Below are positions 810 to 6,197 of a DNA stretch of 39,393 nt, one piece after another; position 1 is the stretch's first letter; every line of letters begins with the position of its first letter. Source of the stretch: an uncultured Saprospiraceae bacterium (GTDB lineage: Bacteria; Bacteroidota; Bacteroidia; Chitinophagales; Saprospiraceae). The notes below the pieces were generated by a model, which made no database searches, was not told the DNA's origin, and saw nothing but the letters and a program-made list of their open reading frames with translations. Both the position numbers and the translations under genes were made by a program. The DNA is taken from the NCBI GenBank assembly GCA_938041325.1, contig CALIAG010000050.1, positions 1 through 39,393 on the forward strand, written 5' to 3'.

Positions 810-1838
810 TTACCCCACCACAGGCACATCCTCCTTAAACCCTTCTACACCATTCACCGTTGTATATTTAAAACTCAATTTTTTATCCGGATAAATTCTT
901 TTAAAAGCAGATTGAACCATGATCGTTCCTTCATGGAATCCACAAAGTATGAGTTTCAATTTTCCAGGATAATTATTGATGTCTCCAATCGCATAAATGC
1001 CTGGGATATTGGTACTGTAATCCAGCGTATCAACATCAATTGCATTCTTAGTGATATTCAATCCCCAGTCCGCCATTGGCCCTAGTTTTGGGGACAAACC
1101 AAACAAAGGAATAAAGTGATCTGTAGACTTTCTAAATTCCCCTTCTGTTTTGTGTTTTAGCAAAACTTCATTCAATTTGCCATTCCCATTCAATCCAACA
1201 GCCTGCACATCTGTCAACAACTTAATGCGTCCCGACTTAGCCAAGTCGTGTACTTTTTCAACAGAATCCAATGCGCCTCGAAAGGACTGCCTACGGTGTA
1301 CCAGTGTGACTTCACTTGCGACCTCCGTTAAAAAGATTGTCCAATCCAAAGCACTGTCTCCTCCTCCTGCTAAAACGACTCGCTTGTCTCGATAAAACTC
1401 TGGGTCTTTTATTATATACTCCACTCCCTTGTCCTCAAATCTTGCTAAATTTTCTATGGGTGGTTTCCGAGGTTCAAAGCAGCCAAGTCCTGCTGCAATC
1501 GTGATAACTGGAGCATTTATTTTTGTTCCTTTATTAGTGGTTAGAACAAAAGAGTCATCGGCTAATCTTTCTATTGATTCCGCTCGTTCTCCCAAGGTGA
1601 AACCTGGGTTGAAGGGTTCGATTTGTTTCATTAGGTTTTTGACCAAATCCCCTGCAAGAATATCTGGGAAACCAGGAATATCATAAATTGGTTTTTTGGG
1701 ATAGATCTCTGTCAATTGACCTCCTGGCTGTGGAAGCGCATCGATTAGGTGGCAACGCAATTTAAGAAGCCCTGCTTCAAAAACGGTAAATAAGCCACAA
1801 GGTCCAGCGCCGATGATTAGAATATCTGTTTTTATCAT
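810..1838 (-). CDS. Ferredoxin--NADP reductase, thioredoxin-reductase-like (FNR2 type)
   Basis: The 342-residue flavoprotein has the two-dinucleotide-fold layout of the thioredoxin reductase family: an FAD motif GAGPCG at residues 10-15, an NADPH motif GGGDSA at 158-163, an HRR at 181-183 that suits the NADP 2'-phosphate, and a second FAD-contact region GIYAIGDINNYPGKLKL at 280-296. The redox CxxC of true thioredoxin reductases is absent, which points to the YumC-like ferredoxin/flavodoxin--NADP reductase group. It is the last gene of the minus-strand sulfite-reduction operon, 48 nt after cysH. There is no CysJ-type flavoprotein here, so its likely job (inference) is to pass NADPH electrons to ferredoxin for the upstream sulfite reductase. 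Other ferredoxin-dependent enzymes could be served too. Confidence 0.9.
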   Translation of the reverse strand: MIKTDILIIGAGPCGLFTVFEAGLLKLRCHLIDALPQPGGQLTEIYPKKPIYDIPGFPDILAGDLVKNLMKQIEPFNPGFTLGERAESIERLADDSFVLTTNKGTKINAPVITIAAGLGCFEPRKPPIENLARFEDKGVEYIIKDPEFYRDKRVVLAGGGDSALDWTIFLTEVASEVTLVHRRQSFRGALDSVEKVHDLAKSGRIKLLTDVQAVGLNGNGKLNEVLLKHKTEGEFRKSTDHFIPLFGLSPKLGPMADWGLNITKNAIDVDTLDYSTNIPGIYAIGDINNYPGKLKLILCGFHEGTIMVQSAFKRIYPDKKLSFKYTTVNGVEGFKEDVPVVG

Positions 1839-1886: not shown

Positions 1887-2594
1887 TTATTTTTCTTTCT
1901 TGGTAAAAAAGTTGGGATGCAAGCCACATTCCGTTTTTTGCTTTCCTTTCCAACGGCCATCCCGCCCCTCTCCTTTTGCTGTACAATGAGTACAACCAAT
2001 CGAACCAAATCCTTGACTTTCCAATGGATGTCTCGGCAGTTCATGCAATCCCATGTGATATAAAAAATCTCCTTCCTCTATATCCACAATTGGATGAAAT
2101 TTGATGATGTCTCCTTGTTGTTCAAAAACGCGAAGCCTTTTTCTGAATCCAGTTTGATAAGCCATTAGCCCTGAAATCCAAACTGAGTGCTTCGCAATAA
2201 TGGGTTCTAGCGGAGCAATTTTATTAATGGTACAACACATCTTAGGATGATCTTCCCACCACTTTTCTTCCCGTGTCATTGCATTTTCCTTCTGACCCGG
2301 AACGACATCCAAAACCTCAAGATTGAATTGATCAGCGATTTGATTTCTATAATCAATCGTTTCTTGAAAATGGTAAGTTGTATTGATAAAATGTACTTTT
2401 TGAGAAGCCTTGATTTGACTGATCAAATGCAAGAGAAAAACGGACTTCGTGCCGAAAGAAGAAGTATACAATATCTCTTTCTCTGAGAAGTAATCGTACA
2501 ATTTTGAAATCCTTTCCTTAAATGGCAAGGGAGTAAAAATTGCATTTAGTTCTTCAACATTTAGTTTTTTTGTAGCTGAAATACTTTTATTCAT
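1887..2594 (-). CDS. cysH: Phosphoadenylyl/adenylyl-sulfate reductase (iron-sulfur type)
   Basis: The 235-residue protein belongs to the PAPS/APS reductase family, which reduces activated sulfate to sulfite. Visible motifs are the nucleotide-binding SSFGTKSVFLLHL near residues 45-57, a Cys-Cys pair at 120-121, CTHC at 201-204 and the C-terminal catalytic ECGLH at 222-226. The combination of CC and CxxC is the [4Fe-4S] ligand set of bacterial assimilatory APS reductases; classical E. coli-type PAPS reductases lack it. APS is therefore the likelier substrate (family inference). It lies between the siroheme methyltransferase (30 nt upstream) and the ferredoxin reductase. The sulfate-activating genes cysD/cysN are not in the window. 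Confidence 0.93.
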   Translation of the reverse strand: MNKSISATKKLNVEELNAIFTPLPFKERISKLYDYFSEKEILYTSSFGTKSVFLLHLISQIKASQKVHFINTTYHFQETIDYRNQIADQFNLEVLDVVPGQKENAMTREEKWWEDHPKMCCTINKIAPLEPIIAKHSVWISGLMAYQTGFRKRLRVFEQQGDIIKFHPIVDIEEGDFLYHMGLHELPRHPLESQGFGSIGCTHCTAKGEGRDGRWKGKQKTECGLHPNFFTKKEK

Positions 2595-2624: not shown

Positions 2625-3416
2625 TTATTTATTTACTTTAAAACCTTTGTTCTCATTTAATTTTTCCATTGCTACCAAGACTGCTAAATCAGGATGCAAA
2701 TTAACAACCTCCCCTATGACAATTATGCCAGGAGTGCCGATCTCTTCTTTTCTAGCAATTTCTGTAATATTCGAAACGTTGCCTAAAACATATTTTTCGT
2801 TTTCTCTTGAGCCATTCTGAATCACCATCACTGGAGTTTTTGCTTTTCCTTTTGATTTAAAAACCTCCATTATCTCTTGCATTTTCCTTATGCCCATCAA
2901 AACGACAACTGTTGCACTTGATTGAGCCGCTATTGAAATATCTTTAGAGAGTTTGCCACTTTTTGTAGTTCCAGTTAACACCCAAAAACTTTCATTCAAG
3001 CCACGTCGGGTAAGTGGTACGTTCTGCAAGGCCGGAACAGCAATGCTGCTAGAAATTCCTGGAATAACAACGACTTCTATATCGAATGAATTTATGAACT
3101 GCAATTCCTCATGCCCCCGCCCAAACACAAATGGATCACCTCCTTTCAGTCGAACCACATGACCATGCGAAAATGCATATTGAACCAATTTTAAATTGAT
3201 TTCTTCTTGAGAAAATCGGTGTTTATTGGCGCGTTTTCCAACATAAATTTTAACAGCACGATCTGGCGCTTCATTCAGCAATTCTGGGTTTGCTAATGCG
3301 TCATAGAGTATAACATCAGCGGACTGAATCGCTTTTAAACCTTTCACCGTTATCAAATCAATATCTCCGGGTCCCGCACCTACAAGTGAAACTTTTGCTT
3401 GAATATTATTTTCCAT
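2625..3416 (-). CDS. cobA: Uroporphyrinogen-III C-methyltransferase (SUMT)
   Basis: The 263-residue tetrapyrrole methyltransferase adds two SAM-derived methyl groups to uroporphyrinogen III to give precorrin-2, the siroheme precursor. Family signatures are clear: GAGPGDIDLITVKG at residues 13-26, RLKGGDPFVFGRG at 89-101, PGISSS at 119-124 and PLTRRG at 134-139. The length matches single-domain SUMT (about 250-280 residues), with no fused CysG dehydrogenase/chelatase domain, so those steps must be encoded elsewhere. It sits directly after sulfite reductase (39 nt gap), whose siroheme it helps to make, which supports siroheme rather than cobalamin as its main product. Confidence 0.93.
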   Translation of the reverse strand: MENNIQAKVSLVGAGPGDIDLITVKGLKAIQSADVILYDALANPELLNEAPDRAVKIYVGKRANKHRFSQEEINLKLVQYAFSHGHVVRLKGGDPFVFGRGHEELQFINSFDIEVVVIPGISSSIAVPALQNVPLTRRGLNESFWVLTGTTKSGKLSKDISIAAQSSATVVVLMGIRKMQEIMEVFKSKGKAKTPVMVIQNGSRENEKYVLGNVSNITEIARKEEIGTPGIIVIGEVVNLHPDLAVLVAMEKLNENKGFKVNK

Positions 3417-3455: not shown

Positions 3456-5594
3456 CTACGCTGTATAATATGATTTGATCACTTCTTTGTCGTTCCCTCC
3501 TAGTTGCTTTTCTCTTTCTGTAATAACATGTTTGAAAAAAGTAGTCGCTTGATTAAAATAGGAGTTTGCAAAATCTTTACTCGCTTCTTTTTTATTCAAT
3601 TGCAAAACGACTTCAGCGAACGTAGTTTCAAAACCAAACAATCCCGTTTCTACGTAATGCTTTTCAAAGTCAGAAATTATTCCTTTGTGGGTATTGCATT
3701 TTACATCATTGCTCAGCAATAGGGCTTTGGCAGCAACAATGAAAGAGGAATAACTGTGGTAAATACTATCAGACCAATCCTCCTTTTCAAATGCTTCTTT
3801 TGCCAAGCTGAGTTTCTCTTCTCCATCTTTTATGATCGTTCCTACTACATCAAAAATTACTCCTGCACATTCTCCAACTCCTATGGCTTGAATGTAATTG
3901 CTATCCTGTCCCCAATCAAAAAAATCTTCCGCCGCGAGCGTTTCAATATCTGCCAATGGTTTGAGGATATTGTAGAAATACTTTTTACCATTGCGTTGGA
4001 AATAGTCATTGAAATATTCTCCTTCTTCTGCATTATTTTCATAATCATCTAAAAGAATTCTAACTGAATCTGGAATCCTTTTAGTTGGAAGCTTAATCAC
4101 TTTTTCAGCGATAAATCCTTGTCCATCATCAGCGACTCCTCCTCCCAAAACAATTTGCATTGCTGGTATGACCAAAGCCTTTTTCTTAATCGAACTTCCG
4201 TGGAATCCAATTTGTGCAGCCATATGTTGCCCACAAGCATTCATACATCCACTCATTTTAATTTTGATATCCGAACTTCCGATTAGGTGCGCATATTCCT
4301 CCGCGATTACTTCTTCTATTTTGGTTGCTAGACCAGTGGAATTGGTAACGGCGAGATTACAGGTGTCTGTGCCTGGACAAGCGGTAATATCTGCAATCGT
4401 GTCAAAGCCAGGCTTTGCATAACCCAAAGCAGACAATTCATTGAACAAATGTGGCAACGCAGATCGGCTAATGTATCTAAGAGAAATCCCTTGATTAACC
4501 GTTAGGCGCAAATCATCGGCGGCATACTTTTTAATGATTGCTGCTAGTTTCTTTGCTTGGTCAGCATGAATGTCTCCAAGTGGAATTCTGATTTGTGCAG
4601 AGAAAAAATTCTTTTGTTTTTGTTCAAAAACGTTGGTCATCAACCAAGCTTCATATTTAGATTGATCTGCAACATCAATTATTGGCCATTCGGATTGAGC
4701 AGGCAATTGAGATTCAATGGTGGTTCGATCTATTTTTACTTCTTTATTTTTTATGGCCAATCTTTCCTGCTCCACTAAAGCCATCCATTCTTCCAGACCT
4801 AATTTTTTAATCAAATATTTCATTCTGGCTTTGAACCGTTTTTCTCGTTCTCCATGACGATCGAAAACACGAATAGCAGCTTCCATGAATGGTATAATTT
4901 GATCTTCGTGAATAAACTCAAATGCGGTTTGTGCAATAATGGATTGCGCTCCAAGTCCTCCTCCTACGACCAATTTAAAGCCTCTAATTTCATTACCGTT
5001 TTCATTTTTTATCCTTGGTATAAATCCAAAATCGTGGAAGTAGGTATATGCTGAATCTCTATCGCTAGAAGAAAAGGCAGGTTTGATTTTCCGGCCCATT
5101 TCTTGGCAAATAGGGTTTCTTAAAAAATACTCATATACCGCTTGCACATAAGGGGAAACATCAAACAATTCGTCAGGATCAACACCAGCAATTGCAGAGG
5201 CAGTGAGGTTACGAACGGTGTTGCCACATGCTTCACGTGCGGTTACGCCTACAGCCGATAGCTCTGTCCATATCGCTGGAGAATCATCCAATTTCACATA
5301 GTGCATTTGGATATTTTGACGAGTGGTTAAATGCAAATTACCATTGGTATATTTCTCTGATACTTCTGCTAAACGAATCAATTGTTGAGTAGTCAATTTG
5401 CCAAAAGGAATCTTGGTTCGGAACATATGAACGCCCGTCTGTCTTTGTCCGTACACTCCTCTCGTCAATCGATAAAGTTTAAACCGTTCTTCATCAATTT
5501 TTCCAGTTTTAAATTTTTCAATTCTATTTTGCAATTCGATGATGTCTTTGGCAACAAGATCGTTCATCGATTTTAAGTCAGAGAAATTTGTCAT
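3456..5594 (-). CDS. Ferredoxin-dependent sulfite (or nitrite) reductase with C-terminal HEPN-like domain
   Basis: The first roughly 560 residues form a duplicated siroheme/[4Fe-4S] reductase. They include the substrate/siroheme region LTTRQNIQMHYV at 89-100, GNTVRNL at 124-130 and four cluster-ligand cysteines at 406, 412, 450 and 454 (C-x5-C, then C-x3-C in SGCMNACGQH). The protein is 712 residues, about 140 longer than ordinary hemoproteins. The extra part (about 575-712) is helical and holds WSDSIYHSYSSFIVAAKALL, which resembles HEPN domains; comparable extensions occur in some Bacteroidota. The operon partners cysH, cobA and a ferredoxin reductase favour sulfite over nitrite as substrate. 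It is the first large gene of the operon, behind about 565 nt of leader containing two poly-Cys peptides. The ATG start is supported by the N-terminal fit. Confidence 0.9.
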   Translation of the reverse strand: MTNFSDLKSMNDLVAKDIIELQNRIEKFKTGKIDEERFKLYRLTRGVYGQRQTGVHMFRTKIPFGKLTTQQLIRLAEVSEKYTNGNLHLTTRQNIQMHYVKLDDSPAIWTELSAVGVTAREACGNTVRNLTASAIAGVDPDELFDVSPYVQAVYEYFLRNPICQEMGRKIKPAFSSSDRDSAYTYFHDFGFIPRIKNENGNEIRGFKLVVGGGLGAQSIIAQTAFEFIHEDQIIPFMEAAIRVFDRHGEREKRFKARMKYLIKKLGLEEWMALVEQERLAIKNKEVKIDRTTIESQLPAQSEWPIIDVADQSKYEAWLMTNVFEQKQKNFFSAQIRIPLGDIHADQAKKLAAIIKKYAADDLRLTVNQGISLRYISRSALPHLFNELSALGYAKPGFDTIADITACPGTDTCNLAVTNSTGLATKIEEVIAEEYAHLIGSSDIKIKMSGCMNACGQHMAAQIGFHGSSIKKKALVIPAMQIVLGGGVADDGQGFIAEKVIKLPTKRIPDSVRILLDDYENNAEEGEYFNDYFQRNGKKYFYNILKPLADIETLAAEDFFDWGQDSNYIQAIGVGECAGVIFDVVGTIIKDGEEKLSLAKEAFEKEDWSDSIYHSYSSFIVAAKALLLSNDVKCNTHKGIISDFEKHYVETGLFGFETTFAEVVLQLNKKEASKDFANSYFNQATTFFKHVITEREKQLGGNDKEVIKSYYTA

Positions 5595-5597
5595 TAG

Positions 5598-5634
5598 ATT
5601 TGATTTTCGATTGAATATTTGATTTTCGATTGAA
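5598..5634. repeat. 18-bp direct repeat next to the sulfite reductase start
   Basis: The 18-mer ATTTGATTTTCGATTGAA occurs at 5598-5615 and again, identically, at 5617-5634, separated by one base. On the transcribed (minus) strand one copy lies immediately before the sulfite reductase start codon, in the ribosome-binding zone. The second copy touches the outer end of the long palindrome. It may be a slippage product or a boundary duplication; no function is shown. Confidence 0.7.
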
Positions 5635-5794
5635 GTTGTTCAAGAATGTTCACAGACAGCGAAGCTAAGTGCTTGATTTTGTGGGCGAAGTTTTTTTTAT
5701 TTCCGTAGCCGTAGCTACATAAATAAAAAAAACTGAAGAACCACGAGATCAATGACTTAGATGCAGCTCTTGTGCTTCATTTTTAAACAACTTC
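5632..5794. repeat. Long imperfect palindrome (MITE/REP-like), about 80-nt arms
   Basis: The 163-nt segment is an imperfect inverted repeat centred near 5711. Its left arm begins GAAGTTGTT and its right arm ends AACAACTTC. The inner 21 nt pair almost perfectly (AGTTTTTTTTATTTCCGTAGC against GCTACATAAATAAAAAAAACT); the outer parts match at roughly three quarters of positions by eye, with a few small indels. It lies in the operon leader between the second terminator and the sulfite reductase start, so transcripts would carry a large hairpin. It could be a non-autonomous mobile element or repetitive palindrome that landed here, or a processing/stability element. No second copy was noticed in this window. 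Confidence 0.75.
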
Positions 5795-5800
5795 GTTAAT

Positions 5801-5836
5801 AAAAAAACCCTTTCAGAATATTTCCTGAAAGGGTTT
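5801..5836 (-). terminator. Intrinsic terminator 2 of the cys leader
   Basis: A perfect 12-bp stem is formed by AAACCCTTTCAG (5805-5816) and CTGAAAGGGTTT (5825-5836), with an 8-nt loop. On the minus strand it is followed by a run of seven T (complement of 5801-5807, partly shared with the stem). It lies 21 nt after the stop of leader peptide 2 and before the first structural gene, so it must be read through for expression. Confidence 0.88.
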
Positions 5837-5857
5837 GACTTTAATAAAAAGCATAAG

Positions 5858-5953
5858 TCATAAGCCATTACAGGAATTATAATTCATTGTACAACAACAG
5901 CAGCAACAAAACTGGTGCATTAATACTGGTATTGCAGGAGGAAAATATTTCAT
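5858..5953 (-). CDS. Leader peptide 2 with six consecutive cysteines
   Basis: A 31-codon frame (ATG at 5953-5951, TGA at 5860-5858) encodes a peptide beginning MKYFPPAIPV. It carries HQFCCCCCC at residues 13-21 and a seventh Cys at residue 28 (NSC). The Cys run uses TGT TGC TGC TGT TGT TGT. An internal ATG at codon 12 could start a 20-residue version that keeps the same Cys run. It lies between terminators 1 and 2 of the sulfite-reduction operon leader. The peptide is unlikely to have a function of its own; its translation rate through the Cys codons is the probable signal (inference by analogy with amino-acid biosynthetic leader peptides). Confidence 0.82.
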   Translation of the reverse strand: MKYFPPAIPVLMHQFCCCCCCTMNYNSCNGL

Positions 5954-5976
5954 AAAAAGTAATAATTTACGTGTAC

Positions 5977-6015
5977 AAAAAATGCCTTTCCATAGATTCT
6001 GGAAAGGCATTTTTT
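5977..6015 (-). terminator. Intrinsic terminator 1 of the cys leader
   Basis: A perfect 15-bp stem is formed by AAAAAATGCCTTTCC (5977-5991) and GGAAAGGCATTTTTT (6001-6015), with a 9-nt loop. On the minus strand the 3' arm ends in six T, giving a standard intrinsic terminator. It starts 38 nt after the stop of leader peptide 1 and ends 23 nt before the ATG of leader peptide 2. No gene on the plus strand would need it as an end signal. Confidence 0.88.
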
Positions 6016-6053
6016 GAAATAATTTTAAACAGTATTATACCCGATCCAGATGC

Positions 6054-6110
6054 TTATTCAGCAGTGCGACAACAACAGCAAGACATCATATCGGAGCGGA
6101 AATTCTTCAT
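6054..6110 (-). CDS. Leader peptide 1 with four consecutive cysteines
   Basis: The 18-codon frame runs from ATG at 6110-6108 to TAA at 6056-6054 and encodes MKNFRSDMMSCCCCRTAE. Four Cys codons in a row (TGC TGT TGT TGT) occupy 6080-6069, seven codons... five codons before the stop. It is the first translated element after the predicted operon promoter, with about 50 nt of upstream untranslated RNA, and is followed by terminator 1. A run of four Cys is very unlikely by chance in so short a frame and is repeated in leader 2, which strongly suggests a Cys-tRNA sensor. Like many Bacteroidota genes it has no clear Shine-Dalgarno sequence. Confidence 0.82.
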   Translation of the reverse strand: MKNFRSDMMSCCCCRTAE

Positions 6111-6165
6111 GTTTCTAGAAGAGTTAAAATCTGTTTGTTTTCAAAATTAAATTTCGATTATAATA

Positions 6166-6197
6166 CAAGTATATAACCTTATGAATTAAGAAGCAAA
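6166..6197 (-). promoter_or_regulatory. Candidate Bacteroidota promoter for the sulfite-reduction operon
   Basis: On the minus strand a TTTG -33 element (complement of 6194-6197) is followed after 20 nt by TATACTTG (complement of 6166-6173), one mismatch from the Bacteroidota -7 consensus TAnnTTTG. Transcription would start near 6158, about 50 nt before leader peptide 1. This is the only element I found that places both leaders on the operon transcript. Confidence 0.6.

Follow-up and report, generated by a model that had tools for sequence, protein, structure and literature searches.

What would place two short reading frames, each with a run of cysteine codons and each followed by a terminator, ahead of a bacterial sulfite-reduction operon? 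Such an arrangement lies on the minus strand of a contig of 39,393 nucleotides (CALIAG010000050.1, assembly GCA_938041325.1) from an uncultured Saprospiraceae bacterium; this whole stretch of DNA is called the window here. Ribosome-mediated attenuation through leader peptides is a textbook class of mechanism, exemplified by the trp, his, leu and ilv operons, and we know of no mechanism of cysteine regulation described in this bacterial group. We hold with considerable confidence that the leader is a ribosome-mediated transcription attenuator of two stages whose signal is charged tRNA-Cys. The evidence is that of sequence comparison, with ribosome stalling, termination in the cell and multiplication of the two stages being inferred.

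Results

Organization of the leader and operon

The features of the locus are listed in the order in which they would be transcribed.

6166..6197, minus strand: predicted promoter of Bacteroidota type, TTTG (6197-6194), N20, TATACTTG (6173-6166)
6054..6110, minus strand: leader ORF1, encoding MKNFRSDMMSCCCCRTAE and a stop; Cys codons TGC TGT TGT TGT at 6080-6069, in a Cys frame supported across cassettes
6036..6051, minus strand: putative antiterminator strand 1 (AUCUGGAUCGGGUAUA), just 3′ of the ORF1 stop, pairing with the 5′ arm of terminator 1
5976..6016, minus strand: intrinsic terminator 1, perfectly paired core, fold -23.4 kcal/mol
5858..5953, minus strand: leader ORF2, 31 aa, MKYFPPAIPVLMHQFCCCCCCTMNYNSCNGL and a stop; six Cys codons at 5908-5891
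5864..5877, minus strand: putative antiterminator strand 2 (AUUCCUGUAAUGGC), inside ORF2 past the Cys run, pairing with the 5′ arm of terminator 2
5801..5836, minus strand: intrinsic terminator 2, fold -18.7 kcal/mol
5631..5794, minus strand: interspersed repeat of ~165 bp that has internal inverted symmetry and separates terminator 2 from sir; an insertion outside the switch
3456..5594, minus strand: sir, the first of the regulated genes; ferredoxin/NirA-like sulfite (or nitrite) reductase carrying a HEPN-like domain at its C terminus
2625..3416, minus strand: uroporphyrinogen-III C-methyltransferase (SUMT, siroheme synthesis); TIGR01469 and NF004790 above cut-off
1887..2594, minus strand: cysH, phosphoadenylyl-sulfate (PAPS/APS) reductase; NF002537 above cut-off
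810..1838, minus strand: pyridine nucleotide-disulphide oxidoreductase, probable electron donor; PF07992

An earlier note, made from the window sequence, had described two Cys-run ORFs alternating with two terminators upstream of the operon, and this description was confirmed in every detail. No further frame with at least four consecutive Cys codons occurs in the rest of the window on either strand, and dinucleotide shuffling of the 1-kb leader yielded 0.0025 cassettes (a Cys-run ORF with its terminator) per shuffle, compared with the two observed. Because the gene upstream of the leader (6593+) is divergent from the sir operon, no other gene accounts for both terminators.

The repeat has three further full-length copies in the same genome, at 88-90% identity. 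The C-terminal extension of sir (residues 588-652) matches the HEPN domain PF05168 at 28.5 bits, and relatives align with it along its full length.

Reading frame of the cysteine run

A (TGY)n run encodes Cys in one frame and Leu, as YTG, in another, and because its codons are synonymous in either frame the run by itself cannot settle which is used. A leucine attenuator is thus a possible reading of the run alone, and Leu runs in short frames do occur (34 cases). However, an ATG start is found for the Cys frame in 80 of 85 cassettes, compared with 12 for the Leu frame and 3 for the Ala/Val frame, and the spacing from stop codon to terminator is tight only in the Cys frame (standard deviation 10 versus 38 nt). 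Lengths of close cassette pairs differ by multiples of three. Moreover, the identified metabolic targets are nearly all sulfur or cysteine genes. The leucine-run reading, rejected on the ATG counts and the stop-to-terminator spacing, is in our judgment extremely improbable, and we infer from these comparisons that the run is read as cysteine.

Antiterminator strands

The linker that joins the Cys run to its terminator carries a strand able to pair with the 5′ arm of that terminator. In 70% of cassettes this strand begins 24-36 nt past the first Cys codon, compared with 26% when linkers are shuffled. Duplex energies have a mean z of -2.5, with p<=0.05 in 72 of 103 cassettes. In the window, the strand 1 duplex (-15.7 kcal/mol) is well separated from its shuffle mean of -8.2 (p=0.005), and that of strand 2 reaches -9.9 against a mean of -5.9; per-cassette statistics are modest, as this second value illustrates (p=0.06). 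An antiterminator strand at a conserved place, which was absent from the earlier note, is thereby predicted. In the alignment, changes on both sides occur at 12 of 12 terminator pairs.

We also folded each cassette with a ribosome, represented by a 15-nt mask, stalled on the third Cys codon. With this stall, upstream RNA captured the terminator 5′ arm in 96 of 104 cassettes; capture fell to 55% when the linkers were shuffled under the same stall, and to only 7 of 104 when the ribosome stood at the stop codon. The corresponding values for cassette 2 of the window are 0.72 stalled and 0.01 at the stop. Part of this last drop is trivial, as the mask then covers most of the linker, although attenuators work in the same way. 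The test takes as given a tight coupling of transcription and translation in Bacteroidota.

A single promoter element upstream of both cassettes

The promoter-like element noticed earlier is present, but its reading as a sigma70 TATAAT is less satisfactory than TTTG-N20-TATACTTG, which is conserved in relatives and ends about 55 nt upstream of the ORF1 ATG. Of 35 tandem leaders, 27 have the pattern TTG-N17..22-TAnnnTTG ahead of cassette 1, with 2.2 expected from shuffles; on its own, the strict TAnnTTTG consensus performed poorly as a test for promoters (12/35 versus 3.6 expected). The strict box is absent between the cassettes in all 35 tandem leaders, and in the window the TTG-N-TAnnnTTG pattern was not found between the ORF1 ATG and sir. 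A second promoter, sought between the cassettes and from terminator 2 to sir, was likewise not found, which leaves without support a transcription start downstream of 5801, an outcome that the earlier note had named as refuting its proposal.

ORF2 begins 5-31 nt past terminator 1 in many leaders, leaving no space for a promoter between the cassettes. With the only promoter element upstream of cassette 1, polymerases must therefore pass both terminators, and the two cassettes are inferred to act in series, not ALTERNATIVES.

Conservation and history of the tandem leader

The sir protein was matched in 128 of 299 order-level genomes, some only weakly, and our leader sample comprised the leaders of relatives and 80 named genome contigs. 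The search for Cys-run frames and terminators in the relatives' sir leaders, which had been suggested as a check, found both conserved, with 35 distinct tandem sir leaders; 104 distinct cassettes were collected from relatives. The tandem form is carried by many Saprospiraceae metagenome-assembled genomes (MAGs) and by the isolate Aureispira sp. CCB-QB1. Only one cassette is present in several relatives, among them Portibacter. In Neolewinella, Roseivirga and Sinomicrobium the sir operon has no cassette leader, which shows that the operon can do without the switch. Tandem leaders group together on a tree of sir proteins, where 14 of 15 rows of the window's supported clade are tandem. One contig (L198), filed as a Bifidobacterium breve MAG, has a sir of Bacteroidota type and was probably misbinned.

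For 59 of 70 cassettes, the nearest cassette occupies the same position in another leader (29/35 for cassette 1 and 30/35 for cassette 2), although closely related members of the set add to these numbers. The duplication is old, because cassettes resemble those at the same position in other genomes over those at the other position. This pattern fits the earlier proposal that architecture, and not sequence, is duplicated. The positions also differ in character, cassettes 1 and 2 having stop-to-terminator distances of 35 and 26 nt and 6.0 and 7.3 total Cys, respectively. Judged by this comparative evidence, the tandem leader is real and conserved, and it is most likely functional.

Cassettes at other operons

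A covariance model of the cassette was used to search for a wider regulon; its E-values are rough, and most of what it matches below about 46 bits is ordinary terminators. In other genomes it gave strong matches upstream of cysM/cysK-JAB-ThiF operons, in tandem in four cases (L273, L274, L282 and L286). A tandem cassette also precedes a cysH (L270), and a single one precedes an OAH/OAS sulfhydrylase (L281). Elsewhere in the phylum, members of other families carry single cassettes ahead of cysK and sir-like genes (L291, L294 and L298).

In the window's own genome, the model found no Cys-run cassette beyond the sir leader. There are 76 TGYx4 sites in that genome, and none of those inspected (roughly two thirds) is followed by a terminator. 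The largest other Cys-run ORF there, C383, was rejected because it is antisense to a Gln-rich TPR protein, and a His-run positive control in the same genome revealed no attenuator.

Several other leaders came to light. A Cys-run cassette (CCCCCCC) stands ahead of a RimK-like ATP-grasp protein (L271:533-1573), and the regulon may therefore include an uncharacterised sulfur-related ligase. SAM-I riboswitches (RF00162) at L160:1823-1922, L179:1841-1951 and L209:2920-3025 are closely followed by polycysteine ORFs (CCCC and a stop) that lack a terminator. In L160 and L179 these leaders precede metY-type genes, and in L209 they precede a terminator cassette and sir; they are possibly two-signal leaders responding to SAM plus Cys. 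Short ORFs ending in CCCCCC(C) and a stop occur upstream of cysH in L127, L129 and L132 (genomes G254, G093 and G214), where no terminator was found, an arrangement resembling that of Actinobacteria. A Met/Cys-rich leader (MNNTVVNKMMMCCKMPMCIPIYCCRK and a stop) with a terminator precedes a metY-like gene (L296, about 1400-1900, genome G338), and a Trp-rich leader (WAWWWC) with a terminator precedes a trpE-like gene (L293, about 1430-1650), an ordinary trp attenuator in the phylum.

Discussion

Alternative explanations

Cysteine runs can arise for trivial reasons, as the 76 TGYx4 sites of the genome illustrate, some of them antisense to Gln-rich coding repeats, and the short ORFs might be products of trinucleotide expansion that happen to lie near ordinary terminators. 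However, the other sites inspected in the genome all lack a following terminator, and the ORF, its frame and the terminator are conserved in relatives. The mixture of codons, from which the earlier note had argued against a simple triplet expansion, holds across cassettes (381 TGT and 174 TGC). Chance is thus scarcely conceivable. Control might instead be translational, as with the polycysteine short ORFs of Actinobacteria, and the terminator-less CCCC ORFs that some Bacteroidota carry ahead of cysH and metY-type genes make a second mode of control in the phylum probable. For the tandem leader itself this explanation is very unlikely, as the intrinsic terminator behind each ORF covaries and has an antiterminator strand to match it, and about 200 nt separate terminator 2 from the start of sir.

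More deserving of consideration, though still unlikely, is the possibility that one cassette regulates while the other is a relic or merely a terminator that reduces leakage. Single cassettes are found in several relatives' leaders, and one leader (L139, genome G035) has two terminators and only one Cys ORF, the second having apparently decayed. Nevertheless, the 35 distinct tandem leaders retain ORF, Cys run, antiterminator geometry and terminator in both cassettes, the cassettes keep their position-specific features, and the tandem form is also found at cysM/cysK and cysH in other genomes. We therefore continue to favor two working attenuators in series.

Proposed mechanism

The sequences supply the ORFs and their frame, the terminators, the antiterminator geometry, a single upstream promoter motif, conservation and the target genes; the dynamics proposed here are our interpretation. 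One transcript starting near 6160 would cross two independent attenuators serially, a ribosome translating the short ORF of each. When Cys-tRNA is plentiful, the ribosome would pass the Cys codons to the stop and cover the antiterminator strand, allowing the terminator to form. When Cys-tRNA is scarce, it would stall on the Cys run and leave that strand free to capture the emerging 5′ arm of the terminator, so that RNA polymerase reads on. Only polymerases passing both attenuators would reach sir-SUMT-cysH. The double switch would probably allow expression of the operon only when charged cysteine tRNA is short, although we have no expression data.

Because both attenuators must be passed, their readthrough probabilities would multiply, and we infer a lower basal expression and a steeper response than with one unit. 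For illustration only, and not from measurement, a readthrough per unit of 0.1 in replete and 0.6 in starved cells would give a 6-fold response with one unit and a 36-fold response with two. We lean, with no great conviction, towards the broader proposal that a cysteine regulon of this Bacteroidota branch (sir-SUMT-cysH, cysM/cysK-JAB-ThiF, cysH and OAH/OAS sulfhydrylase) is run by leader-peptide attenuators, and that selection keeps the same-signal pair for a multiplicative, switch-like response to Cys-tRNA charging beyond that of one unit.

The finding assigns a mechanism of cysteine regulation to this group and implies close transcription-translation coupling there. Since the tandem is kept across deep divergences and recurs at other operons, it poses a testable question: do serial attenuators sharpen gene control?

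Relation to known systems

The leader shares with the trp, his, leu and ilv attenuators a run of regulatory codons, a stop near the antiterminator strand, a competing intrinsic terminator and a biosynthetic operon for the same amino acid. It thus meets the expectations of a short ORF with a codon run for the pathway's amino acid, an intrinsic terminator between leader ORF and structural gene, and downstream genes of the same (cysteine) pathway; an exclusive antiterminator, freed by a Cys stall and masked by a ribosome at the stop, is met by prediction only. It departs from those systems in its cysteine signal, its two complete attenuators in series and its Bacteroidota promoter. Rfam covariance models (T-box, SAM and others) matched only a tRNA in the window and nothing in seven related leader loci.

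We found no published tandem attenuator for the same amino acid with a terminator for each unit, in a search confined to openly licensed literature; subscription journals may contain an earlier prediction. The groups of Lyubetsky and Seliverstov and of Gelfand have reportedly made comparative surveys of attenuation. As far as the openly licensed literature shows, three things are new: the tandem form with one shared signal, a cysteine regulon in Bacteroidota, and how deeply it is conserved.

The polycysteine leader ORFs of Actinobacteria (Canestrari et al. 2020, listed as reference 47 of PMC13236596) are likewise short Cys-run ORFs upstream of cys operons. However, they have no conserved terminator hairpins (PMC1262725) and are described as leaderless, whereas the window combines tandem units, each with an intrinsic terminator and a predicted antiterminator, with a 5′ leader predicted to be untranslated; an ORF at the transcript 5′ end (judged by the predicted promoter position) and the absence of a terminator are the actinobacterial features that it does not meet. 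A flavobacterial transcriptome paper gives clues of leader-peptide attenuation before amino-acid operons, in a passage that does not name cysteine (PMC9723704). In Rhodobacterales, the uORFC-8-2 motif ahead of cysS is predicted to be an attenuator with Cys codons and an intrinsic terminator (PMC8632094). It differs from the window in being a single unit of alphaproteobacteria, with cysS as its target and two Cys codons that lie within a stem. The mgtCBR leader of Salmonella has two short ORFs in tandem, an arrangement termed singular by its authors, which sense ATP and proline additively and where Rho may terminate (PMC3641672). In contrast, the window's leader would read the same signal twice, with an intrinsic terminator for each reading, so that its two stages probably act multiplicatively.
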